DNA from: an uncultured Prevotellaceae bacterium
Lineage (GTDB): Bacteria; Bacteroidota; Bacteroidia; Bacteroidales; Bacteroidaceae
Direction: 5' to 3'
Assembly: GCA_900320565.1 (NCBI GenBank)
Contig: ONSR01000009.1
Span: forward strand, 58,408-122,407
Length of the DNA: 64,000 nt
This document shows positions 5,607 to 55,998 of the stretch, in pieces. The translations under genes and the position numbers were made by a program. The notes below the pieces were generated by a model that was not told the origin of the DNA, did not search any database, and worked only from the letters and a program-made list of their open reading frames with translations. Each line of letters opens with the position of its first letter. The first letter of the stretch is position 1.

Positions 5607-6928
5607 CTCTCGAGCAATCTGTCAAGCATTATGCCAAACTGACGCCAGACAAAGCGGCTGTCATTACAGGCGATGAGACGCTTTCCTACTCGTCTCTTTG
5701 GAAACGAATTCAAGAGAAAGCGAGCCTTTTGAAAGGGAATGGCCTCTCAGAAGGGAAACCTCATGTCTTCATATCCAAGCAAGATGTCGATTTCGTCGTA
5801 ACCTATTGTGCCGCACATCATCTGGGAGGCGTCTGTGTTCCCCTCGAAAGTTCAACCCCCAAAGAGCGTCAACAGCAAATCCTCGACGAAGTAAATGGGA
5901 AATGGTCAAATGGTAAATGCTCCGACATCCTCTACACCACAGGCACAACAGGCAAGGCAAAAGGCGTGATGATATCCACAGAAGCATGGAATGCGAATGC
6001 TGAAAACCTTATCGACAGGCTAGGATTCACCTCCGATTTGCTCTTCATCGTTTGCGGTCCGCTCAACCATCTTGGCAGTCTCTCCAAGATATATCCTACA
6101 CTCATGACTGGCGGCACATTATATATTATGGAGAGCCTGAAGAACCTCAATGCTTTCTTCTCAGTCTTCGAACTGCCTTTCACGAAGTTCGCCACCTTTC
6201 TCGTTCCCTCCAGCATCAGGATGCTCCTGCAGGTTGCCTCAAAGAACTTGGCAGCCGTAGCCAGCAAGATTGACTTCATCGAAACGGGAGCCGCTGCCAT
6301 TACACAAAGCGACATGGAGGCACTCTGCAAGGTCCTGCCCCACTCTCGCCTTTTCAACACCTACGCATCAACTGAGACGGGCATCGTTTGTAGCTACGAG
6401 TTCAGCCGATACGGCTGCGTGCCTGGCCTCCTAGGAAAGCCCATGAAGCATTCTTCTGTTCGTATTGACGACCAGGGCAGAGTGATTTGTTCGGGCAAGA
6501 CCCTCATGTCGGGTTACGTTAATGCACCTGAACTGACGGCTCAAGTCCTGATAAATGGGGAGATTCATACTTCCGACGTCGGTTCTCTCGATGCCGACGG
6601 CATGCTGCACTTGCAGGGAAGGCAGGACGATGTCATCAATGTGGGGGGCTACAAAGTGAATCCATCCGAGGTGGAAGAAGCGGTAAGTGGCTTCGACCTT
6701 GTTGCCGATTGCATTTGCATTCCTGCCCAACACATCCTTCTCGGCATAGTGCCCAAGCTCCTTTATGTGCCCAAACAAGGCAAAGAAGTAAAGCCAAAAG
6801 ACATAGCCGACTTTCTTAAAAGTCGCCTCGAGAACTATAAAGTTCCTATACTCTACGAGGCTGTCGATGCCATCAAACGCACCTACAACGGCAAACTCGA
6901 CCGCAAAGCATACCTCCCTGCTCGTTGA
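5603..6928 (+). CDS. AMP-forming acyl/aryl-acid ligase (ANL superfamily)
   Basis: The protein has 441 residues, short for this superfamily (usually 500-550). The phosphate-binding loop YTTGTTGKAKG is at 111-121, the aromatic/acid motif FNTYASTETG near 250, the HTSDVG...LQGRQDDVINVGGYKV hinge region near 330-360 and the catalytic-lysine motif NGKLDRK near 430. It activates a carboxylic acid as adenylate and passes it to CoA or, given the preceding ACP gene, to the carrier protein (inference). The stretch VNGKWSNGK just before the P-loop comes from a 7 bp repeat (5891-5919) and is probably a tolerated insertion in a surface loop. It is the last gene of the operon. Confidence 0.87.
   Translation: MTLEQSVKHYAKLTPDKAAVITGDETLSYSSLWKRIQEKASLLKGNGLSEGKPHVFISKQDVDFVVTYCAAHHLGGVCVPLESSTPKERQQQILDEVNGKWSNGKCSDILYTTGTTGKAKGVMISTEAWNANAENLIDRLGFTSDLLFIVCGPLNHLGSLSKIYPTLMTGGTLYIMESLKNLNAFFSVFELPFTKFATFLVPSSIRMLLQVASKNLAAVASKIDFIETGAAAITQSDMEALCKVLPHSRLFNTYASTETGIVCSYEFSRYGCVPGLLGKPMKHSSVRIDDQGRVICSGKTLMSGYVNAPELTAQVLINGEIHTSDVGSLDADGMLHLQGRQDDVINVGGYKVNPSEVEEAVSGFDLVADCICIPAQHILLGIVPKLLYVPKQGKEVKPKDIADFLKSRLENYKVPILYEAVDAIKRTYNGKLDRKAYLPAR
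5891..5919 (+). repeat. 7 bp repeat block (GTAAATG type) inside the ligase gene
   Basis: Units GTAAATG, GGAAATG, GTCAAATG (one base longer) and GTAAATG follow each other within the coding frame and encode VNGKWSNGK. The same TAAATGG theme appears on the minus strand at 14131-14166. Confidence 0.7.
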
Positions 6929-6956
6929 TTCCGGAACAGCCCCAAGTGAAGCGTGA

Positions 6957-7066
6957 AAAGTTAACGTGTTAAGTTTGCAAACTAAGCACGTTAAGTTGAG
7001 CAACTAAACACGCCTAAATTACAAACTAAGCACGCCTAATTTACCAATCACGTTAGGGACATAAAA
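6957..7066 (+). repeat. 22 bp tandem array, about five units
   Basis: Units begin at 6957, 6979, 7001, 7023 and 7045, each 22 bp. Each starts AAAG, AAAC, CAAC, AAAC or CAAT and carries a core such as TAAGCACGTTAAG or TAAGCACGCCTAA followed by TTTGC, TTGAG or TTTAC. It lies between the ligase stop and the tRNA terminator. The preceding GTGAAGC GTGAAAA (6946-6959) is a two-unit 7 bp repeat. Confidence 0.8.
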
Positions 7067-7285: not shown

Positions 7286-7316
7286 CATTTAGGCAAGTTT
7301 TTTCTATTTTTCTCAT

Positions 7317-7344
7317 TTTTCACTTTTCACTTTTCACTTTTCAC
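7317..7344 (+). repeat. four perfect 7 bp repeats (TTTTCAC) upstream of aroB
   Basis: TTTTCAC is repeated four times without error, ending 21 bases before the TATCTTTG promoter element. The array therefore covers the place where a -33 element would be. Confidence 0.9.
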
Positions 7345-7365
7345 TTTATTATAATATATAATGTG

Positions 7366-13935: not shown

Positions 13936-14023
13936 GAACATAACACGGGGGAATCCTCAACGCAACGTAGGGCATTGGCAAACTTAACATAGGGCATTGA
14001 AAAAGGCCCTATGCCAAGTCAAC
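13936..14023 (+). repeat. 22 bp tandem array, four units
   Basis: Units begin at 13936, 13958, 13980 and 14002. The second and third share AACGTAGGGCATTG / AACATAGGGCATTG; the fourth carries the inverse GGCCCTATGCC. Weaker continuation is seen on both sides. The array fills much of the 480 bp gap between the SGNH gene end and the PadR promoter; the rest (13673-13935) shows nothing recognisable. Confidence 0.75.
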
Positions 14024-14084: not shown

Positions 14085-16940
14085 CTACTTCAGAACCTTT
14101 TTCCCGTTCTGGATGTAAACACCCTTGGGTAATTTACTATTTAGCCATTTACCATTTACCATTTGATTGCCATCTGCAACCTTGCGGCCACTCAAGTCGT
14201 AAGTGCCCTTGATGCCGTTTGCATCAGAGGACGACCTGGGAAGTGTGATGCCGTCGGGGTTCTCCACCTCTTCTATCTTGAAGTACGTGCGCTTTTCTGC
14301 TGAAGGCAGATAGCAACTGAAAGGTGGCAAATTGACTGTCGATGTAACACGATAGAGGTTGGCTCCCGTCGTCTTCAGGCTATAGCCTTCGCCTGCATTC
14401 AGTGTCCTGCCAGGATAGACTCCCAGCAGAAGATTCTCCGGCCACGAGGAAGCGAGACACGCCTCCCCCACCTCATTCTTGTCGAGTGCCGTCAGTGTGA
14501 TAGCAGCCTTCGCTGTACCTTTGATGATGACAGGTGTTCCGTATGGCACGACATCACCAGCCTCAGCGATGGGCATCATTTGGACAGACGTAGAGGTGAA
14601 TCCTGTGGCGATGAAGGCAGTGCACCCCTCGGGCACTTGATAGATGTAGGGCAGGCAGACCGCCACGTATCCATTGGAGCCGAGCGTGTAGCTTCTTTCC
14701 TGCGAGCCAAGTATGCCATGCAGGTTTCGCACCTGGTCTTGTGTGAGTGCCCTGCCCCAGATGCGCACCATAGCGATATTGCCTTGGAAAGGATAGGCAC
14801 CCGTCGATGTCGCCTTATCGAATACGCCTGAAGCGTCACCACCTATGGCAAGCCATTCGGAGGGCGTCCACTCATACAGCATACATTCCTTGAAGGTCAG
14901 CCAGCGGCTGGCAGCCAGTTCACCGTTGACATAGAGTTTCGACGTATAATTTTTTCGGTCGAAGACAATAACATAGTGCGTATAGGTATCAGTAAGGCTG
15001 CCGCTGCCCACTCTGGTCCACTGCGTCTTGGCATAAGTGCCGTCCGTCTTGTTGCCCAGAGTAACTGTGCAGAACCCGATATTGCCCTGGATGTTCATAT
15101 CCATGCCAAAGCCCCAGCCACTGCCACATCCGATGGGACGCGTGCTTGCGGCGGGTAATGCAGCGCTGTTCTTGCAGAAGAGTTCTACGCTGTACGCCTC
15201 GGAAAGTCGGTTCATAATCGACGGATTGTCGCCAAGCTGATACTTGAAGAACTGCGACTTCACGCCGTTGAACTGTGCCTCATAGAAGTTGATGTCGGCA
15301 TTGTAGGCAATCGAGACATCGCCCATCTTGATAATAGGTTTATCCTGATAGGCCGGAGCACGATTGGCGGCACTGTCTGGAATGAACTCACAGTCCATGA
15401 TGAGCTCCGCCCCGAACTGCGTATCCGGCTCCGTAAAACGCTTCACATCGTCGTCATAAAGCCCCTGGGCCGCATTCTGCGTCAACGCACCGTCGTATAT
15501 CCTGGCAAAGACAAAACTGCAAGCCGACGAGTTCTCTGCACCGACACTATAGGCACCTTCCTTAGCATCGCCACCCAGACAAATCCACATGCCCTTACGC
15601 CCCTTGCTCGAGCCGCACTGAGGCATCATCATGTCCGTGCCAGCGCGAGTGCCGGTGCAGACAAGCTTGCCATTGATGAAGTAGCGCATGATGTGGCTCG
15701 TCCTGTCCATCGTGACAACCAGATGGTAGAACTTGCCCGAGACAAGAATGGAGTCGCCCGTGATGCTCTTCATGGTGCTCTTCACCCCACTCTTGTTGCA
15801 GTAGGAGAAGCTGCTTGCCAAGGCCGAGTTATAGAAAGCCCAGCCTCCGCCACCCTCCTCGTTGCCCAGGATACACGTCCTGCTGATGTTTCCGTTCTCG
15901 TCTGCCAGCCCATCCAGACGCACCAGCATCTCCCACGTCACATTGCCATTGAAGGCATTGGCCAAAGGCGAATCCAGGTCATAAGTCGCATAGAAATAGT
16001 CCGAAGCCTTAGCCTTCGAGCAGCCGTAGTACGTATCGTTCTTGGCATCATAGAAAGTGGTGGCATTGCCATGCTTGCCCACTCTGGCAGTATAAGAGCC
16101 CTGATTGACGATGCCGTCAGCCGTGAAGCTCAAGTCCAGAAGCCGCTCAGCCTCCGTCACCTCGTTCGAGCGCTTCAAGGCTCTCGTAATGATGCCCTGC
16201 GAAATCAGCTTGTTGTAGATGTTCTGAGCCATTATCTTGAAGCCGTCGGCCGTAGGATGGAGGTTGCCCGGCAGCATATAGAGCCCCCAATTATTGCTGA
16301 AGGGAATCGTGGTGCAGTCTATGTAGTACTGGCCGAACTGCTCCGCGATATACTGTATGCTGGCATTTGCATCCGCCTGCGACCATCCCTGACTATTCTT
16401 CTGTGTGACACTCTCGCCTCGAGGCAAGATGCTCAGGCAGACCACCTTCGACTCAGGATACCACGTCGTGAGCTTCCACAGAAGACGCTGGTAAGCGCCA
16501 CGGAAGGAGACAGAGTCCTTGAAGTTCTCCGTCCGGTACTCACCCAAAGGCACCTTCGACGTATTCCAGTCGTTCGTACCGCCAGCAATGAAGATGAAGT
16601 CAGGGTTGCCAGCCCTGCCAAGCGCCTTCATGCGATGGTTACTCAAGAAAGGCGCATTACTGTTGAGCACGTCGCAAGCCACACGGCTGCCGCTCCACGA
16701 AGCATTTGCCAGGAACGTCAGCCCAGACAATCGGCTCAGCTGCATCCACCAAGTGTCACCCACCTGAATGCCGTAGTTCTTCTCGCGGTCCTGGCTGTAA
16801 TATATAGCATAACCCGACGGCAGATAGTCGTAATACGTCGAGATGGAGTTCCCCAACACAGCGAAAGTCAGGCTGTCAGGGTTCTGAGCGTAAGCCTTTG
16901 CGCCCACGCACAAAAGCATCAACAAAAGCAGTCTCTTCAT
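14085..16940 (-). CDS. secreted SGNH-hydrolase protein with two LamG-type domains
   Basis: Signal peptide KRLLLLMLLCVGAKAYAQ; 951 residues from ATG 16940, chosen over the ATG at 16961 because TAACTTTG at 16970-16963 places the transcript start near there. Residues ~23-240 are an SGNH esterase: block I VLGNSIS (Ser32), Gly in SWSGS, block III GGTND (Asn123) and block V NLHPTADG (His228). The usual Asp three residues before the His is Gly225, so the triad may be incomplete. Two LamG/concanavalin-like domains follow (~260-500 and ~530-740; repeated LYVNGELAASRW and FINGKLVCTG strands, ALTQ(N/D) ends). The shared C-terminal tag ends in GVYIQNGKKVLK and contains a 7 bp repeat insertion. Probably removes ester groups from extracellular glycans. 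Confidence 0.85.
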   Translation of the reverse strand: MKRLLLLMLLCVGAKAYAQNPDSLTFAVLGNSISTYYDYLPSGYAIYYSQDREKNYGIQVGDTWWMQLSRLSGLTFLANASWSGSRVACDVLNSNAPFLSNHRMKALGRAGNPDFIFIAGGTNDWNTSKVPLGEYRTENFKDSVSFRGAYQRLLWKLTTWYPESKVVCLSILPRGESVTQKNSQGWSQADANASIQYIAEQFGQYYIDCTTIPFSNNWGLYMLPGNLHPTADGFKIMAQNIYNKLISQGIITRALKRSNEVTEAERLLDLSFTADGIVNQGSYTARVGKHGNATTFYDAKNDTYYGCSKAKASDYFYATYDLDSPLANAFNGNVTWEMLVRLDGLADENGNISRTCILGNEEGGGGWAFYNSALASSFSYCNKSGVKSTMKSITGDSILVSGKFYHLVVTMDRTSHIMRYFINGKLVCTGTRAGTDMMMPQCGSSKGRKGMWICLGGDAKEGAYSVGAENSSACSFVFARIYDGALTQNAAQGLYDDDVKRFTEPDTQFGAELIMDCEFIPDSAANRAPAYQDKPIIKMGDVSIAYNADINFYEAQFNGVKSQFFKYQLGDNPSIMNRLSEAYSVELFCKNSAALPAASTRPIGCGSGWGFGMDMNIQGNIGFCTVTLGNKTDGTYAKTQWTRVGSGSLTDTYTHYVIVFDRKNYTSKLYVNGELAASRWLTFKECMLYEWTPSEWLAIGGDASGVFDKATSTGAYPFQGNIAMVRIWGRALTQDQVRNLHGILGSQERSYTLGSNGYVAVCLPYIYQVPEGCTAFIATGFTSTSVQMMPIAEAGDVVPYGTPVIIKGTAKAAITLTALDKNEVGEACLASSWPENLLLGVYPGRTLNAGEGYSLKTTGANLYRVTSTVNLPPFSCYLPSAEKRTYFKIEEVENPDGITLPRSSSDANGIKGTYDLSGRKVADGNQMVNGKWLNSKLPKGVYIQNGKKVLK
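14131..14166 (-). repeat. 7 bp repeat block inside the C-terminal tag of the SGNH protein
   Basis: On the plus strand AATTTAC, TATTTAG, C, CATTTAC, CATTTAC, CATTTGA follow with one extra base. The gene strand shows the TAAATGG theme and encodes QMVNGKWLNSK, which widens the tag between its two conserved halves relative to the other tagged proteins. Confidence 0.7.
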
Positions 16941-26078: not shown

Positions 26079-26284
26079 TGTTAGTTTAAATTTAAAGGTT
26101 AAGTTGATAAGTTAGTTTTTTTATACGTTAATTCAATATATTTCGCCATACAAATTTATCTTTTTTACCTTTATATATTATATAATACGTAACGATATTT
26201 TCCATTTGTTAACATTTTTTAATATCCTTAGTCAACAAAGTGGCAGAATATGGCATGATGTGCAAAGGGTATAAAGTCTGTTGC

Positions 26285-26416
26285 AAACGCCCTATAGGGG
26301 AAAGGCAAACGCCCTATAGGGGAAAGGCAAACGCCCTATAGAGGAAGAGCAATTCCCCTATAGGGGAGTAGGAAACGCCCTATAGGGGAATTGTAAACCT
26401 GGCGTGCTGCGCCAGC
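26285..26416 (+). repeat. 22 bp tandem array, six units
   Basis: Units begin at 26285, 26307, 26329, 26351, 26373 and 26395. Units 1-3 and 5 contain AAACGCCCTATAGGGG or a close copy, unit 4 has CCCCTATAGGGG, and unit 6 has the hairpin CTGGCG TGCT GCGCCAG. It sits at the 3' end of the CotH gene. The rest of the gap (26079-26284) is AT-rich leader and promoter sequence of the preceding gene, with TTAACCTTTAAA near its start. Confidence 0.9.
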
Positions 26417-30924: not shown

Positions 30925-31009
30925 ATGAAACAAATTGTTTCTGCGGTGGAAACAGTTTGTTTCACAGGTGAAACAGTTTGTTTCTCATGTGAAACTATGT
31001 TGAAACAAG
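30925..31009 (+). repeat. 21-22 bp array of palindromes GAAACAnnnTGTTTC
   Basis: Units begin at 30925, 30946, 30968 and 30989. Three hold a palindrome of the form GAAACA-nnn-TGTTTC (GAAACAAATTGTTTC, GAAACAGTTTGTTTC twice) at 21 and 22 bp spacing; the fourth is degenerate. It lies in the 800 bp divergent gap between the CotH and LamG genes. In that gap, 30740-30850 also has several ACTATACATCTATACAT-like stretches, and the remainder shows nothing recognisable. Confidence 0.8.
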
Positions 31010-31062: not shown

Positions 31063-31128
31063 AAGTTGTGCTGTTTTAGTTGACAAACTCGACGTGCCGT
31101 GTTGACAAACTCGACGTACAGTCATGAA
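31063..31128 (+). repeat. 22 bp tandem array, three units
   Basis: Units begin at 31063, 31085 and 31107. The last two share AAACTCGACGT and all end in TTGAC or ATGAA. It lies about 120 bases upstream of the promoter at 31249. Confidence 0.75.
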
Positions 31129-31351: not shown

Positions 31352-34234
31352 ATGAGAAAAGCAAAACTTCTCTTGGCTGCCGTGCTTTGCACAGTGGCAG
31401 CAGGAAATGCCGGGGCTCAGATTACTGGCAACTCCCAGCTTTCCAACACGAAGGTTTACACCGTGACCACGCCTCGCGGCGCATGGATGGTGGACCAGAC
31501 AGGCAACCGAATGCACTACGACGGCAACTACACCAGCTCGAGTGCCACTCCCAAGAACGACGTGAACTATCAGTTCGCTTTCATCAACCATGAGGGCCAC
31601 TACTACCTCTACGCTCCTGCCATGAAGAAGTTCGTGCAGCCGCAGAAATATTTCCGCACAGGCTACACCACGCCCGTCACCCTCGCAGCAGAAAGCGGCA
31701 AGGTGAAAGTGAAGGGCGAGGAAACACCCCTCACCATCAACATCGGCGGCGCACAGTGGACATGGGACACATGGACAAGCTACGACGACGGTAACACCGT
31801 GACTATCGTGGAAGCCGCTGACCTCAGCGCAGCCGACCTCAACGAGGCCATCTCCATCCTCACGGGCACACCCGACTATTTCGACTCCCATAAGGTTTAC
31901 ACCATCAACTGCGAGCGCGTGGGCAACTGGGCTGCATCGGCCGACCACAACAGCCTGAGCTCCACCCTGGCATACCCCGGAGCCACGGATGCCGAGAAGC
32001 AGTTCGCCTTCTACCACAAAGATGGCAAGCTCTACATCTACAGTGTGGGCGCAAAGAAGTTCCTCAAAGGCGACGGAACCTTCGTCACAGGCAAACTGGG
32101 CGACCCCATGGACTATCGCATCATCAGCACGAGCGGCTACGACCACATGCTCTACGTTCCAGCCACTCACTTCTATTTCAATTCGCAGACAAGCGGTGGC
32201 TATGCCATCAACAGCTATTCGTCGGCCGACGCAGGCAACAAGCAGTCGTTCACCGAGGTCAACGGACTGGATGTCTTCGACGAGATGGACCTCATCGCCA
32301 ATCCCTCCTACTTCGTCACCTACGTCGTGAAGGATGAGGACGGTGCCACCATCTTCACATCCGAGCCCGTTGCAACGAATCTCGGAGCCAGCATCACCAG
32401 CCTCCCCGCTGACTTCCGTCGCTCCTTCTACACCTACAACGACGTCGACGTCACCGTCAGCGACTTCAACACCACCGTCGAGTTCACTGCAACGTGGGAC
32501 GGTCCGTTCGAAATCTCTACCGACTACGCCACAGCCCACTGGTACAACATGGCTGTACGCGGTAACTATTATGTGACATCGGGCAACAAAGCCACCGACG
32601 GCTCGCTCGCTCCCATCCCGGCAAACGCTATGGGTCTGGTGGAAGACGCTTATCAGTGGGCATTCATCGGCAACAACTACGACGGCTTCAAGGCTATCAA
32701 CAAGGCAGAAGGCGACAGCAAGGCCTACGCATGGGTTTCCAACGACAACAGCTCCATCCCGACCTTCGTCGATTATGCTACAGCCAACAAGTGGTACATC
32801 AAGGCCAGCACATCGTCTGTTGCCAACTCCTTTATGCTAACCACAGACAAGGGCTTCCAGACCAACCAGTTCGGTGGTGCCACAGGCTCTCTCAAGATCT
32901 GGGCAGACACCAGACTCAACGACGCAGGCTCTGCCTTCACGACCTTCAACGTGCCCACAAACTTCGCCAACTTCGTGGTTGACGAAATCGCACCCGCAAT
33001 GGAAGCAATAGGATACTTCGCCTTCACCGACGAAGTAAAGGCCACCATCGGCTGGGATCCTGCATACAAGACTGAATGCCCCTATGAGTCCTACAAGAAC
33101 ATGAAGGAGAAGTTGACTGCCATCGACATGACCGACATCAGCAACTACGTTCTTCCCGAGACCGGATACTACACGCTCAAGAACAAGAACTACGGCACCT
33201 ACATGGGCATCGACCCGAGCGACGCTGTGATGTACGGCAACTATGCCAGCGCAAACGAAGCCAAGCAAGTCGTCAAGCTCACAAAGACTGGCGCTGCCAC
33301 CTACACCATCGGCTTGATGGGCAAGTTCGCTCCCGCTGCCGTCGCACAGAGTGAAACCGTTTCTGCCAAAGACGAAGCCGGCACATACACCGTGGTTGTT
33401 CCCACCGTTGGCTTTGCTGCATTCCAGGCCGACACAGAGAACAGCATGTCCGTCCTGCACCAGCGTGCCGCAGGCGACATCGTGGGCTGGGGAGCTCCCG
33501 CCGCTGCATCTCAATGGGAAGTACAAAATGCTACTAGCATCGAACTCACTATCGGTGCTGAAGGCTATGCTACAACTTATCTGCCCTTCCCCGTTGAGTA
33601 TGGAGGCATTTCCATGCCGAAGGCAATCGGTTGCTGGACATTCGACGATCCTTCCAAGGCAATCGGTTGCTGGACATTCGACGATCCTTCCGATCTGCTT
33701 GCAGGTACCGGCATTGCTACCCTGCAGGCAACAACCCATGAAAAGGACAACGTTACAGTAACTGACGTCGCCACAGCCGGCATTACCACCGTGGATGGTC
33801 CCGATGCAAGCAACGGTGCTGTGGAAGTTCCCGTTGGCTCAAGTCTCTTGATGGCTGCCAACAATGGTGCAACAAGCATGGGCACATATTCTATTATGTA
33901 TGATGTATGCGTAGAAGACGGTTCTACATTCATTCCTCTCCTGCAGAATAGCCTGACCGACGGTAAGGACGGCAGCCTCTTCATCAATAAGAACCAAGTT
34001 GGTCTTGGCGGAGGCATCGGCTACCATGGCAACATCGAGAACAACAAGTGGTATCGCATCGTCTTCACCGTAAGTCCTTCGGAAGCTTCTCTCTATGTGG
34101 ACGGCAACTTGCTCACCACATACAACCAGAATTTCGATAATGTCAATGGCTCTTACCTTAAACATTGGGTTCTGACGACGGGTGCGCTCTTCTTTGCCGA
34201 CGAAGACGGTCCGAGCTGCGCTTCTGGGATGTAG
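31352..34234 (+). CDS. secreted multi-module LamG protein, 5' part (frame broken near 34208)
   Basis: 960 residues up to a premature TAG. Signal peptide AKLLLAAVLCTVAAGNAGAQ. Two lectin-like modules follow (~25-160 and ~180-310; HEGHYYLYAPAMKKFV and KDGKLYIYSVGAKKFLKG), then the GPFEIS..AHWYNMAVRGNYYV module (~388-500) that is also present in the divergent CotH protein. A LamG-type domain starts near 755 with CWTFDDPS and is cut off after LFFADEDG. The expected continuation, SELRFWDVALNAQQV, is encoded in the -1 frame from 34210, so the original gene ran 31352-35376 (about 1341 residues). A perfect 36 bp tandem duplication sits at 33620-33691. No catalytic domain seen; glycan binding inferred. 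Confidence 0.8.
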   Translation: MRKAKLLLAAVLCTVAAGNAGAQITGNSQLSNTKVYTVTTPRGAWMVDQTGNRMHYDGNYTSSSATPKNDVNYQFAFINHEGHYYLYAPAMKKFVQPQKYFRTGYTTPVTLAAESGKVKVKGEETPLTINIGGAQWTWDTWTSYDDGNTVTIVEAADLSAADLNEAISILTGTPDYFDSHKVYTINCERVGNWAASADHNSLSSTLAYPGATDAEKQFAFYHKDGKLYIYSVGAKKFLKGDGTFVTGKLGDPMDYRIISTSGYDHMLYVPATHFYFNSQTSGGYAINSYSSADAGNKQSFTEVNGLDVFDEMDLIANPSYFVTYVVKDEDGATIFTSEPVATNLGASITSLPADFRRSFYTYNDVDVTVSDFNTTVEFTATWDGPFEISTDYATAHWYNMAVRGNYYVTSGNKATDGSLAPIPANAMGLVEDAYQWAFIGNNYDGFKAINKAEGDSKAYAWVSNDNSSIPTFVDYATANKWYIKASTSSVANSFMLTTDKGFQTNQFGGATGSLKIWADTRLNDAGSAFTTFNVPTNFANFVVDEIAPAMEAIGYFAFTDEVKATIGWDPAYKTECPYESYKNMKEKLTAIDMTDISNYVLPETGYYTLKNKNYGTYMGIDPSDAVMYGNYASANEAKQVVKLTKTGAATYTIGLMGKFAPAAVAQSETVSAKDEAGTYTVVVPTVGFAAFQADTENSMSVLHQRAAGDIVGWGAPAAASQWEVQNATSIELTIGAEGYATTYLPFPVEYGGISMPKAIGCWTFDDPSKAIGCWTFDDPSDLLAGTGIATLQATTHEKDNVTVTDVATAGITTVDGPDASNGAVEVPVGSSLLMAANNGATSMGTYSIMYDVCVEDGSTFIPLLQNSLTDGKDGSLFINKNQVGLGGGIGYHGNIENNKWYRIVFTVSPSEASLYVDGNLLTTYNQNFDNVNGSYLKHWVLTTGALFFADEDGPSCASGM
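33620..33691 (+). repeat. perfect 36 bp tandem duplication in the LamG gene
   Basis: The 36 bp starting AAGGCAATCGG and ending GATCCTTCC occurs at 33620-33655 and again at 33656-33691 without a difference. It repeats KAIGCWTFDDPS in frame and looks recent. Confidence 0.95.
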
Positions 34235-39187: not shown

Positions 39188-39273
39188 AGACATGCTTAGC
39201 TGCAGCGAGCGAAAGCAAACTCGGCTAAGCGACTCAACACAAAGCAGGAAATTGTAAACATTTTTCTCCTAAG

Positions 39274-39297
39274 CGGCGTTTCTGACGCCGTTTTTTT
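39274..39297 (+). terminator. intrinsic terminator after the DUF3472 gene
   Basis: CGGCGT, loop TTCTG, ACGCCG, then seven T. It lies 87 bases after the stop codon. Confidence 0.9.
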
Positions 39298-39453
39298 GTT
39301 CAGATGACCTCAGATATACCCTGAAGCCTAAAAAGGGCTTATTTTGAATCCGCACTGACAATCAAGCAGTTACAAAGTCGGTTTTTAGTAGGCAATGTTA
39401 AGATAGTATCACTGTCACACGTCAATCAATCAAACATGATGTAGTTTGGACTC

Positions 39454-39585
39454 AAATTCGACGTGTTAAGTCGGTAAACTTAACGTAGGGGAATTTCAAA
39501 CGCGACACGTCGAATTTGCAAACGCCCCACGTCGCGTTGAAAAACGCCCCACGTCGCGTCTGCCGATTCGACACGTTAACTCACA
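39454..39585 (+). repeat. 22 bp tandem array, six units in exact register
   Basis: Units begin at 39454, 39476, 39498, 39520, 39542 and 39564. Starts are AAAT, AAAC, AAAC, AAAC, AAAC, CGAT; cores carry TTCGACGTG, TTAACGTAGGGG, GCGACACGTCG, GCCCCACGTCGCG (twice) and TTCGACACG. Units 4 and 5 agree in their first 18 bases. The array lies between the terminator at 39297 and the alkaline phosphatase promoter; 39298-39453 shows nothing recognisable. Confidence 0.92.
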
Positions 39586-39670
39586 AAATACTGTAAAGGA
39601 TTTTTCACCACAAACCACGTTTGTCTAGACGACTCATGCCATTCAAATGCAAAGAAAAACTCGTTTTTCT

Positions 39671-39701
39671 TTTGTATTTCGCGGGCTTTTTCGTAACTTT
39701 G
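39671..39701 (+). promoter_or_regulatory. promoter of the alkaline phosphatase gene
   Basis: TTTG (39671-39674), 19 bases, TAACTTTG (39694-39701). Transcription should start about 35 bases before ATG 39744, leaving an A-rich leader (TAACAACAAAC) at the start codon. Confidence 0.8.
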
Positions 39702-39743
39702 TGGGCGGATTGGATAATTATATAACTTAAAATAACAACAAAC

Positions 39744-41132
39744 ATGAAGAAACGAGTCTTTTCTACACTGAGCATCCTGCTGGTTGCTCTGGCTGCTCTT
39801 GCTGAAGGCAGAGCCAAGTATGTATTCTATTTCATCGGCGACGGTATGGGCGTGAACCAGGTCAACGCTGCCGAGACTTACCTCGGTGCGCTCGAAGGTC
39901 AAATTGGCATCAAGGAACTTTGCTTCCCCAGCTTCCCCTACGTAGCACTCATCAACACACAAAGCGCCACGAATGGCGTGACCGACTCTGCTGCCGGCGG
40001 TACTGCTCTGGCAAGCGGACACAAGACGAAGAACGGCGCTCTCGGCGTCCTGAAGGACCTGGAGACGCCTGTTAGCAGCATCGCACATTGGGCAAAGGAT
40101 GCAGGTGCTGCAGTCGGTGTAACGACCAGCGTGAGCATAGACCACGCTACTCCAGCTGCCTTCTATTCGCATGTGGCAAAGCGCAGCATGTCCTACGAGA
40201 TTGGTTCTCAGCTGCCAGGCTCCGGATTTGACTTCTTCGCAGGAAGTGACTTCGTGAAGCCTCAGAACCCAGACGGCGGCCCAGACCTCTATGCACAGGC
40301 TCAGGCTGGCGGCTACACGATTGCTCGTGGCTACAAAGACTACCAGAAGAAAGCCAAGAAGGCCGACAAGATGATTCTCTTCCAGACAGAAGCAGCAAGC
40401 AAGATCGACAACGGCTGCATCCCCTACGCACTTGACCGCACGAAGGACGACCTTACCCTGCAGGACATCACACGCGCAGCCATCAACTTCCTCATGAAGA
40501 AGCAAAACGAGAAGGACGGCTTCTTCGTGATGATTGAAGGCGGCAAAATTGACTGGGGCTGCCACGCAAACGACCCCGTCTTCATCACGGAACTCATCGA
40601 CATGGACAATGCCGTGAAGGTAGCTTACGAGTTCTATCAGCAACATCCCGACGAGACACTCATCGTCATCACTGCCGACCACGAGACAGGCGGACTGGTG
40701 CTCGGCCGTGGCCCGTACGAGTTGAACCTCAAAGCAGTAGCATCTCAACGCATGAGCATGGTGAAGCTCGAACGCGAACTCAAGGCCAAAAAGGCAAAAC
40801 TGGGCGACAAGTTCACTTGGGAAGAAGGCAAGAAGTTCCTCACAGATAACTTTGGCTTCTGGGGCGACGTGAAGGTAAACGACGATCAGGCAAGCCGCCT
40901 GGAACGCTCGTTCAAAGAGTTTATGGAGAAGAACGACCCAGGTCGTCTGTCAGGCACCGTGAAGCGCGTCATCTCCGAATGCGCCCTGATTGGTTGGCAA
41001 AGCGGCGGCCACAGCAACGGCTACGTGCCGGCCTTCGCAATCGGCGTCGGAGCAGAACAGTTCCACGGACGCTTCGACAACACCGAAATCTGCAAGAAGA
41101 TGGCAAAGGCTGCAGGTTGGGAAATTAAGTAA
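39744..41132 (+). CDS. alkaline phosphatase (PhoA superfamily), exported
   Basis: A 462-residue protein with signal peptide KRVFSTLSILLVALAALAEG. The phosphomonoesterase core is complete: metal-binding Asp33 in FIGDGMG, nucleophile Ser82 in TDSAAGGTALASGHKT, EGGKIDWGCHAND (~270-282) and ITADHETGGLVLG (~309) as metal ligands, and HSNGYVPAFAIG (~423) carrying the last zinc ligand. It hydrolyses phosphate monoesters in the periplasm, with two zinc ions and a third metal in family members. It lacks the shared C-terminal tag. A 58-base gap leads to the GH43 gene on the same strand, probably in one transcript from the promoter at 39671. Confidence 0.92.
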   Translation: MKKRVFSTLSILLVALAALAEGRAKYVFYFIGDGMGVNQVNAAETYLGALEGQIGIKELCFPSFPYVALINTQSATNGVTDSAAGGTALASGHKTKNGALGVLKDLETPVSSIAHWAKDAGAAVGVTTSVSIDHATPAAFYSHVAKRSMSYEIGSQLPGSGFDFFAGSDFVKPQNPDGGPDLYAQAQAGGYTIARGYKDYQKKAKKADKMILFQTEAASKIDNGCIPYALDRTKDDLTLQDITRAAINFLMKKQNEKDGFFVMIEGGKIDWGCHANDPVFITELIDMDNAVKVAYEFYQQHPDETLIVITADHETGGLVLGRGPYELNLKAVASQRMSMVKLERELKAKKAKLGDKFTWEEGKKFLTDNFGFWGDVKVNDDQASRLERSFKEFMEKNDPGRLSGTVKRVISECALIGWQSGGHSNGYVPAFAIGVGAEQFHGRFDNTEICKKMAKAAGWEIK

Positions 41133-48096: not shown

Positions 48097-48105
48097 CGTT
48101 CCAAA

Positions 48106-48193
48106 ACATCACGTGTGACGAAGCCTAACATCTAGTGTGACGTTTGCATTTTACTAGTGTGACGTTTGAAATCGTATAGTGCCAGGTTTGAAA
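48106..48193 (+). repeat. 22 bp tandem array, four units
   Basis: Units begin at 48106, 48128, 48150 and 48172. The shared core is TAGTGTGACGTTTG (units 2-3), CACGTGTGACGAAG (unit 1) and TAGTGCCAGGTTTG (unit 4). Read on the minus strand the units open with AAACGTCACACTAG, so they carry the same AAAC start as the other arrays, in opposite orientation. Confidence 0.85.
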
Positions 48194-52058: not shown

Positions 52059-52068
52059 TGTTTTAACA

Positions 52069-52159
52069 GACTACAGACAACTGACAACGGACAACGGACA
52101 GCAGTCAATGGTCAATGGTTAATGGTCAACGGTCAACGGTCAATGGTCAATGGTTAATG
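52069..52159 (-). repeat. thirteen 7 bp units filling the gap before NhaC
   Basis: On the plus strand GACTACA, GACAACT, GACAACG (2), GACAGCA, GTCAATG (2), GTTAATG, GTCAACG (2), GTCAATG (2), GTTAATG, without a break in register. It leaves 2 bases to the peptide-transporter stop and 10 bases to the NhaC start codon. Confidence 0.93.
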
Positions 52160-53771: not shown

Positions 53772-53830
53772 CAAAGTTATAAAAAAAAGTTCAATGTTCA
53801 ATGTTCAATGTTCAATTTGTTGTACTTTTG
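53772..53830. promoter_or_regulatory. divergent promoter region of the POT and SulP genes with four 7 bp repeats
   Basis: TAACTTTG on the minus strand (53779-53772) points to POT and TACTTTTG on the plus strand (53823-53830) points to SulP. Between them TTCAATG occurs three times plus TTCAATT (53790-53817). Both -33 positions fall within or beside the repeat. Confidence 0.65.
53790..53817 (+). repeat. four 7 bp units (TTCAATG) between divergent promoters
   Basis: TTCAATG three times followed by TTCAATT. The heptamer differs from the GTCAATG units at 52069-52159 by one base. Confidence 0.92.
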
Positions 53831-55583: not shown

Positions 55584-55813
55584 AGTTTTTCTTTTTGACA
55601 ATTAGGAGCTGGCTGAAATGTGCCTACGCCTTGTCGTGAATCAAAGCTCCTGTCCCTGGTGATTCTTGGGCGTATTACCTCCCAACATAATCTATCTCCA
55701 TAAGGCAAATTCCGCTGCTTGAGGAATCTTGATTTAAATAGAATCCGTACCTTCGTAAACCGAACGATATACAACATACAAGGGAAAAACACTAGCATAT
55801 CTTATACATATCT

Positions 55814-55901
55814 CTATAATATCAAGTAAAGAGTTCTATAATATCAAGTAAAGAGCTCTATAACATCAAGAAAAGACCTCCATTGGAACAAGCAAACAAC
55901 T
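55814..55901 (+). repeat. 22 bp tandem array, three clear units plus one weak
   Basis: Units begin at 55814, 55836, 55858 and 55880. Units 1 and 2 share their first 20 bases (CTATAATATCAAGTAAAGAG), unit 3 reads CTATAACATCAAGAAAAGA, and unit 4 is diverged (GGAACAAGCAAACAACT). Confidence 0.85.
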
Positions 55902-55921
55902 AAGTAGTATCTCCTATACAT

Positions 55922-55998
55922 GTCCGGTAGATGTCCGGTAGATGTTCGGTATAAAAGCGGACAAGTACCGGACAAGTACCGGACATATAGCGGACAAC
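55922..55998 (+). repeat. 11 bp tandem array, seven units with mid-array inversion
   Basis: GTCCGGTAGAT (2), GTTCGGTATAA, AAGCGGACAAG, TACCGGACAAG, TACCGGACATA, TAGCGGACAAC in unbroken register. The first three carry TCCGGTA and the others its reverse complement TACCGGA, so the array is an inverted repeat built from direct repeats. Confidence 0.92.

Follow-up and report, generated by a model that had tools for sequence, protein, structure and literature searches.

Intergenic arrays of 22-bp quasi-palindromes in gut Bacteroidales: possible rows of dyad protein-binding sites with fixed geometry and replaceable sequence

The parS, matS and Noc sites are dispersed dyad sites of homodimers, and to our knowledge they are not arranged in tandem at 22 bp. 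Our comparison with known repeat families draws on published accounts (PMC4596501, PMC3733652, PMC3898611, PMC7999016, PMC1525189, PMC4755523). REP elements and BIMEs are short clustered intergenic palindromes, often located between convergent genes, and those of E. coli are bound by gyrase, IHF and Pol I (PMC3733652, PMC1525189). The dRS3 repeats and NIMEs of Neisseria are described as repeats of about 20 bp with conserved ends and a variable core, forming intergenic mosaic arrays (PMC3898611). BrickBuilt, a MITE of Porphyromonas gingivalis, is an intergenic tandem short repeat with a 23-nt consensus (AGAYCATARTATCCTCTCRTRTG), flanked by a leader and a tail whose ends are inverted repeats; one strain has 19 copies, and no BLASTn match beyond P. 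gingivalis is reported (PMC4596501). PINSR of Prevotella intermedia is intergenic and is present in 177-184 copies, with about three quarters of the positions common to two strains (PMC4755523).

We analyzed intergenic arrays of 22-bp units in a window (the whole stretch of DNA under study, 64 kb from an uncultured Prevotellaceae bacterium) and in related genomes. The arrays are like parS, matS and Noc sites in being dispersed dyads, but the copy number of ParB_N does not follow them. Like REP elements and BIMEs, they are short, clustered, intergenic palindromes biased to the 3' ends of genes. Unlike those elements, they have a 22-bp head-to-tail period and arms that differ between arrays, and no RAYT gene was found in the array-bearing genomes searched. 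Among 183 linkers of CACG/CGTG units (CACG class only), the REP foot tetranucleotides GTAG or CTAC occurred 0 times and CGTC or GACG three times. The arrays share conserved ends and a variable core with dRS3/NIME; however, dRS3 is a 20-bp unit, ATTCCC(N8)GGGAAT, whereas here the period is 22 bp, the core tends to be self-complementary, and the units abut. As with BrickBuilt, they are intergenic tandem short repeats in Bacteroidales, but the BrickBuilt unit is 23 nt and by eye not palindromic, and the sequences here are different. PINSR differs in being a 188-bp repeat with one consensus, and section 3.4 of its description names no 22-bp unit (PMC4755523). We found no description of these 22-bp arrays in the open literature, a search whose scope took in few subscription journals. 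Bacterial repeats do not usually keep their geometry while their sequence is replaceable, and this combination points either to an undescribed nucleoprotein system or to a mutational process in which palindromes are copied by a ruler of two turns.

An earlier note on this DNA had named arrays at eight places in the window, and all eight proved real. A lag-22 scan of the window's gaps detected eight arrays with a score of at least 12, compared with a mean of 0.013 (maximum 1) in 300 shuffles, each done within 40-bp blocks. Six arrays scored at least 16, compared with none in the shuffles. The scored segments were 6946-7047, 13959-14004, 26283-26398, 30927-30973, 31079-31127, 39494-39559, 48105-48193 and 55792-55997. 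In contrast, 50 kb of E. coli K-12 contained no lag-22 arrays in the same scan. The predicted excess at lag 22 in intergenic DNA was present in the window (autocorrelation 0.349 vs 0.272 expected; z 13.5) and in 20 stretches of the same genome (2.63 Mb in 122 contigs) that were chosen blind (0.334 vs 0.270; z 21.0), where lag 44 had a z of 20.8. Lags 22 and 44 were peaks in the window and in the blind sample, and also when 40 stretches were pooled, the other 20 of which were mostly picked from hits. A sharp excess had been predicted at lag 11 as well, and it was absent (z -1.2 in the blind sample); since every second 11-bp half-unit is inverted, a direct peak at this lag is not expected. In six genomes, the spacings of 10-60 bp that separate model units were 22 in 307 of 348 cases and 44 in 24, a count that is not fully independent because its model was trained on lag-22 arrays. 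The units abut at this spacing, with no spacers of the CRISPR type, as the note had said. Its description of the period as strict was right for most unit pairs; the window array at 13936 is weak, and the one at 30925 is a mixture of 21 and 22 bp.

A second set of peaks in the genome's intergenic autocorrelation, at lags 7, 14 and 21, is due to heptamer repeats and is separate from 22. Heptamer tandem repeats (TCACTTT, ATTTACC, GTCAATG, GTTCAAT) were observed in the window at 7299-7347, 14132-14164, 52065-52159 and 53789-53816.

The array on which the earlier note centred, at 39452-39583, has six 22-bp steps with CACG/CGTG centres (score 28, with only the inner 39494-39559 scored by the lag-22 scan; TRF 39491-39556, period 22; dyad p 0.08). 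It sits beyond a terminator-like hairpin at 39271-39293, and a search of its own genome gave 25 match rows besides the array itself. The gene at 39744-41132 has as its nearest named record the MAG RUG11599 (uncultured Bacteroidales bacterium; 99% identity), and the next nearest records are also MAGs, several of ruminant gut. The palindromic array of CAAACTAAGCACGTTAAGTTTG type at 6946-7047 (score 30; TRF 6968-7044, period 22; dyad p 0.01) lies 17 bp past the stop codon at 6928 and ahead of tRNA-Met. At 13936-14004 there is a weak array of about three units (score 14 for its lag-22 segment). The array of CGCCCTATAGGGG type at 26283-26398 has five units (score 62; TRF from 26283, period 22, 4.9 copies; dyad p 0.02). 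An array of GAAACA-TTTGTTTC palindromes at 30926-30995 runs at 21/22 bp (TRF from 30926, period 21, 3.3 copies; score 22 at lag 21 and 13 at lag 22), and a two-unit array, GTTGACAAACTCGACGTGCCGT, is located at 31079-31127 (score 19; dyad p 0.14, not significant). The array at 48105-48193 has a CTAGTGTGACGTTTG core and no significant dyad (score 25; TRF from 48132, period 22; dyad p 0.92). The array of CTCTATAATATCAAGTAAAGAG at 55792-55913 lies between convergent genes (TRF 55812-55880, period 22, 89% matches) and has a related copy with 80% identity at locus L011, 9971-10286. It adjoins two mutually inverted 11-bp direct arrays, ATGTCCGGTAG and CGGACAAGTAC, at 55920-55997 (TRF 55920-55951 and 55958-55997), and the whole stretch 55792-55997 has a dyad p of 0.16. 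Such 11-bp CCGGACATATA-like arrays adjoin 22-bp arrays both here and at L011 10118-10173.

The arrays are confined to the gaps between genes, or nearly so. With a hexamer-scored gene caller, all 84 arrays in 692,567 bp were intergenic, including 33 of 33 in the blind stretches alone, in agreement with the note's statement that none is in a gene; a cruder longest-ORF caller placed 72 of the 84 in gaps (both callers were home-made). When 13 congeners were added, one of 120 arrays was called genic. Arrays were found in 67 of 253 gaps of at least 60 bp (25 of 107 in the blind stretches). By orientation of the flanking genes, array-bearing gaps were 32 of 113 (++), 15 of 62 (--), 12 of 33 (+-) and 9 of 45 (-+). 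Within codirectional gaps of at least 150 bp in five genomes, 62 of 79 arrays were closer to the upstream stop and 17 to the next start (p 4e-7).

Many of the 22-bp units are quasi-palindromes that consist of a 7-bp arm, a 4-nt centre (CACG, for example), a second 7-bp arm and a 4-nt linker (AACTTCACACGTGAAGTT, AACTTCTGCAGAGAAGTT, AGGGACGCGTCCCT and the CGCCCTATAGGGG type are examples). The arms vary between arrays and species, yet tend to remain complementary. The earlier note was correct about the period, the placement, the array-specific cores and the lack of a single fixed sequence, but it overlooked the quasi-palindromes, the covariation of their arms and the genome-wide, lineage-specific family to which the arrays belong. 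The unit ends that it reported, AAAC and TTTGC, are the second dyad (linker TTGC-AA) of a palindromic array. The 92 arrays in 786 kb of the window's genome had centres of CACG/CGTG (52), CTGC/GCAG (10), CTATAG (7), CATG (4), CGCG (3) and other kinds (16). Linkers were mostly TGCA, GGCA, TGCC or GGGC-like (56/183), the consensus of the CACG class in a curated set is AACTnnACACGTTAAGTT plus linker, and one array class includes, by eye, ATTCCCCTATAGGG.

Complementarity of the arms was measured in the CACG-centred arrays. With the register set by the centre alone, arm pairing was 0.595, compared with 0.458 when the right halves were re-dealt (249 distinct units from five genomes; z 14.3). When each array contributed a single unit (n = 73), the z was 7.9, and there was nothing comparable with the register slid by one base. 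A curated alignment (49 of 69 two-unit segments) had a covariation score of 0.277 vs 0.171 and 69 double-change cells vs 33, each with 0 of 500 shuffles as high; two of the five measures, pairs with a double change (202/500) and pair types (46/500), were not clearly above shuffles.

We tentatively favour the reading that the arrays are tandem dyad-symmetric binding sites of putative lineage-specific DNA-binding proteins, to which we give somewhat less than an even chance. Each 22-bp unit, which corresponds to roughly two turns if the DNA is underwound, would be occupied by one dimer of such a protein, and two to six dimers would line up along one face of the helix, which fits the earlier note's suggestion that equivalent bases face the same side. 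The rows of dimers would sit in gaps that follow a gene or separate transcription units, like BIMEs or other chromosome-organising sites, and a topological or organisational role would be possible. The preferred sequence would change by species and, in the window's genome, by array class, through paralogous proteins or relaxed specificity; arrays gain and lose whole units, and conversion would partly homogenise them. The dominance of the 22-bp spacing, the placement nearer the 3' ends of genes, and the recurrence of the layout with unrelated sequences in the window's genus and in Bacteroides caecigallinarum all argue for this reading, and a factor that reads DNA in steps of two turns would best explain one geometry over unrelated sequences. 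Against it, a significant dyad (identity at the best phase above a column-permuted null, p ≤0.05) was present in just two of the six strongest window arrays (6946 and 26283; the rest had p 0.08-0.92) and in 37 of 72 intergenic arrays of the genome sample, and one genome contains many arm types. The only candidate searched, ParB_N, does not track the arrays: it was single-copy in 22 of 24 genomes, and the two genomes with two copies were split between one with arrays (G117) and one with none of the searched pattern (G155), which led us to reject a ParB paralogue or Noc-type site. A bolder version is unlikely, although we think it worth stating: the arrays might belong to an as yet undescribed system that organises the chromosomes of Bacteroidales, in which fast-evolving putative proteins line up as rows of dimers along tandem 22-bp dyads between transcription units, the geometry (22 bp, about four units) being kept while the recognised sequence is replaced wholesale by species.

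At several loci around a phosphatase-like gene, 22-bp palindromic arrays have unrelated letters. The second family of arrays is that of B. caecigallinarum (GTNACACGWWCGTGTNAC). We read fourteen 0.9-kb pieces plus locus L184. All 15 arrays had four units of NCGTNACACGWWCGTGTNACNN, and all 60 units were distinct. Six symmetric pairs of positions (12 of 22) were 90-100% fixed, as expected of protein contacts, and the remainder were variable; the fixity of the GT/AC positions is partly by selection, because units were accepted if at least three of four GT/AC dinucleotides matched. Covariation at the variable positions was absent on average (mean z -1.8; pairs between -2.8 and +2.1). Exactly where the four units end, the flanks switch to a different shared motif, with TAA at 1-3 and TTT at 17-19 outward on both sides. 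These symmetric, A/T-rich flanks are not complementary inside an element (z -1.6), and therefore a nucleoprotein site fits better than a hairpin; a bidirectional terminator, which the A-tracts and T-tracts might recall, was rejected on the same result. In the Bacteroides family, selection on a nucleoprotein site is suggested by the unit number and by the contact-like positions. Weak signals were all we found of conserved ends in the window's clade (TGTTTTC in 13 vs 2 of 225 flanks; C[AT]GTAG in 10 vs 9).

A search with the array gave 33 match rows in B. caecigallinarum ET12, which is recorded as a strain rather than a MAG and is presumably cultured; seven other named genomes gave no match. We searched 301 family genomes with a two-unit pattern, allowing 3 mismatches. 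Three g29 genomes gave 35, 66 and 35 forward hits, and two g38 genomes gave 6 and 2; the backward control gave 0 throughout. One of the three g29 genomes, G207, shares its contig coordinates with the ET12 genome and is not independent of it. The gene calls put one B. caecigallinarum array inside a coding stretch (L280, which is the same site as L278). At four Bacteroides/Phocaeicola loci (L171, L184, L193 and L195) the matched gene has a four-unit array some 3-4 kb upstream of it, probably at one orthologous site.

The distribution of the arrays is patchy. In small samples of each of 13 congeners, 22 was the top lag in six (G007, G011, G019, G023, G012 and G024; z 3.6-10), and most others were near zero. 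Among order-level relatives it was never the top lag; G029 had a z of 4.7 at lag 11 and 2.8 at lag 22 in 388 bp, and G026 a z of 3.9 at lag 21. A covariance model of two CACG units had matches in 17 of 61 genus genomes and none in 44, with at least 30 matches in 13 (about 108 candidates were scored per genome, so that high counts are minimum values). The same model, applied to 80 further genomes from the family sample, matched only in the congener G069, plus one match in a g30 genome. In a tree of 30 genomes built on RelA/SpoT, those rich in arrays formed a main clade and a separate pair, indicating two changes. Congeners negative for the model can have 22-bp arrays with other arms (two each in G047 and G060), as does G012 (one array, 6 model hits), and no 22-bp arrays were found in 50 and 39 kb of G062 and G066. 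CACG-centred arms are TTAA or TCAA in the window's genus; G069 has TCAACACGTTGA, G071 is related, and the window's clade mostly has TTAACACGTTAA. The genus genomes look like MAGs, mostly 60-97% complete, and their array counts may be low because contig ends fall in compound arrays. Farther out, 23 of 80 named loci around the phosphatase-like gene had a lag-22 array, the edge piece of L117 included. Lag 22 stood out at nine Bacteroides/Phocaeicola loci (6 vs 0-2), whereas at 50 loci of intermediate distance it (10 arrays) was not above lag 21 (17) or lag 14 (13), which counts against the binding-site reading. The occurrence of the same layout with other letters in some other gut Bacteroidales suggests rows of protein sites or self-copying palindromes.

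The close rival for the window's family is a neutral or selfish palindromic minisatellite, which we regard as possible, if doubtful. Tandem hairpins would expand by whole-unit slippage, and strand switching templated by the hairpin, together with conversion among units, would keep their arms matched; the hairpins would persist behind genes, where selection is weak, and the 22-bp register would come from the 7+4+7+4 geometry of the hairpin. The covariation of the arms is what this process predicts, and one fixed binding specificity does not. Arrays also fold more stably, relative to shuffles, than array-free DNA does (mean z -2.9 in 90 arrays vs -0.8 in 80 array-free 88-mers; DNA parameters), and the centre occurs in both orientations within 17 of 73 arrays. 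Comparison of two close genomes, G011 and G023 (mean identity of flanking-gene pairs 84-98% in the 13 gaps listed), bears on both readings. Of 92 orthologous gaps, 24 had an array in both genomes, 66 in neither and two in one only, and in the latter two the partner has aligned sub-threshold sequence (identity 0.84 and 0.94). Position was retained in 24 of 26 orthologous array gaps, in line with binding sites. The indels that touch arrays were four of 22 and four of 1, whereas none of 35 indels elsewhere in the gaps was of 22, and 26 pairs of units within one array shared an identical change in the same column, compared with 4.4 at random (0 of 2000 trials as high; 188 substitutions in the 21 of 26 gaps that were ungapped). 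Such concerted change is expected of the minisatellite and is not predicted by one fixed specificity. However, most arm changes (67) hit a single arm; 13 were double, and 7 of these, in 539 arm pairs, were compensated, vs 0-3 in slid registers. Identity was 0.87 within arrays and 0.88 outside over the 13 gaps, and thus the arrays are not faster-evolving on average; it ranged from 0.70 to 0.96 for CACG arrays and from 0.87 to 0.98 for the GGTTAACC class.

In the window's clade, the whole-unit indels, concerted change and arm covariation suggest that palindromes are copied inside the array, whether or not a protein is bound. The minisatellite predicts neither one period across unrelated sequences nor the constant four units, free of average covariation, in B. 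caecigallinarum. In its favour, no match to the nuclease gene sbcD above the cut-off was found in any of 17 genomes of the window's genus (11 had weak matches below it), but this includes array-poor congeners, and sbcD was found in six of seven g29 genomes, including 3 of 3 with arrays. The sub-threshold state of sbcD may permit palindromes in the genus but does not track the arrays, and on the sbcD result, loss of SbcCD as the sole cause was rejected. Binding sites and a repair or slippage process, both of which the earlier note had offered, may hold together. The four-unit arrays of B. caecigallinarum make the question testable at the bench.

It is improbable that the arrays act as RNA, as tandem 3' UTR hairpins that stabilise or terminate transcripts. 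The 3' bias and the stable folds (computed with DNA parameters) would suit this role, as would the several arrays that begin 30 bp or less from a stop codon and the presence of a terminator-like hairpin in 32 of 74 array gaps compared with 19 of 99 array-free gaps. However, the array is past the hairpin in 18 of those 74 gaps, ahead of it in 6, between two in 1 and around one in 7, and 42 have none, so that the general role as terminators proposed in the earlier note was not supported. The sense strand had no excess of G:U (wobble asymmetry 39 vs 52 cells) or, in the CACG class, of G:T (136 vs A:C 156), and the orientation bias of the arrays was not significant (31 vs 19; p 0.12). These results rule against RNA hairpins with wobble pairs and agree with the binding-site reading. 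In a covariance-model search of the window against Rfam, only tRNA reached its gathering score.

Mobile elements of the REP/BIME or MITE kind, spread by a transposase, are likewise improbable. Similar arrays are dispersed, a 621-bp compound piece had 83 match rows in the genome (itself included), the flanks in B. caecigallinarum are symmetric, and the 556-bp gap at 39188-39743 measures 21, 31 and 42 bp in three relatives, entire gaps being gained or lost at greater distance. However, close species keep their arrays in the same places, and no two of the 60 Bacteroides units are identical, which speaks against a recent burst; searches of phages and of plasmids with one array each gave no match. 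RAYT-driven REPs were rejected: Y1_Tnp (PF01797) had no match in G000, G007, G008, G011, G019, G023 and G024 (62-89% complete) and was present in G012, which has few model hits.

Some minor features of the repeats were also seen. By eye, the ORFs between compound arrays at L040 and L011 look housekeeping, and no transposase of an IS was recognised there. Similar pieces recur every 95 bp at L040 (about 95-470), adjoining compound palindrome arrays, with partial copies elsewhere. Five contigs of G000 (C35, C37, C40, C56 and C103) start, at position 1, inside compound 22-bp-array blocks, and therefore assembly probably breaks at these repeats. Within the window, ORF 31352-34234 contains a perfect 36-bp tandem duplication at 33620-33691.
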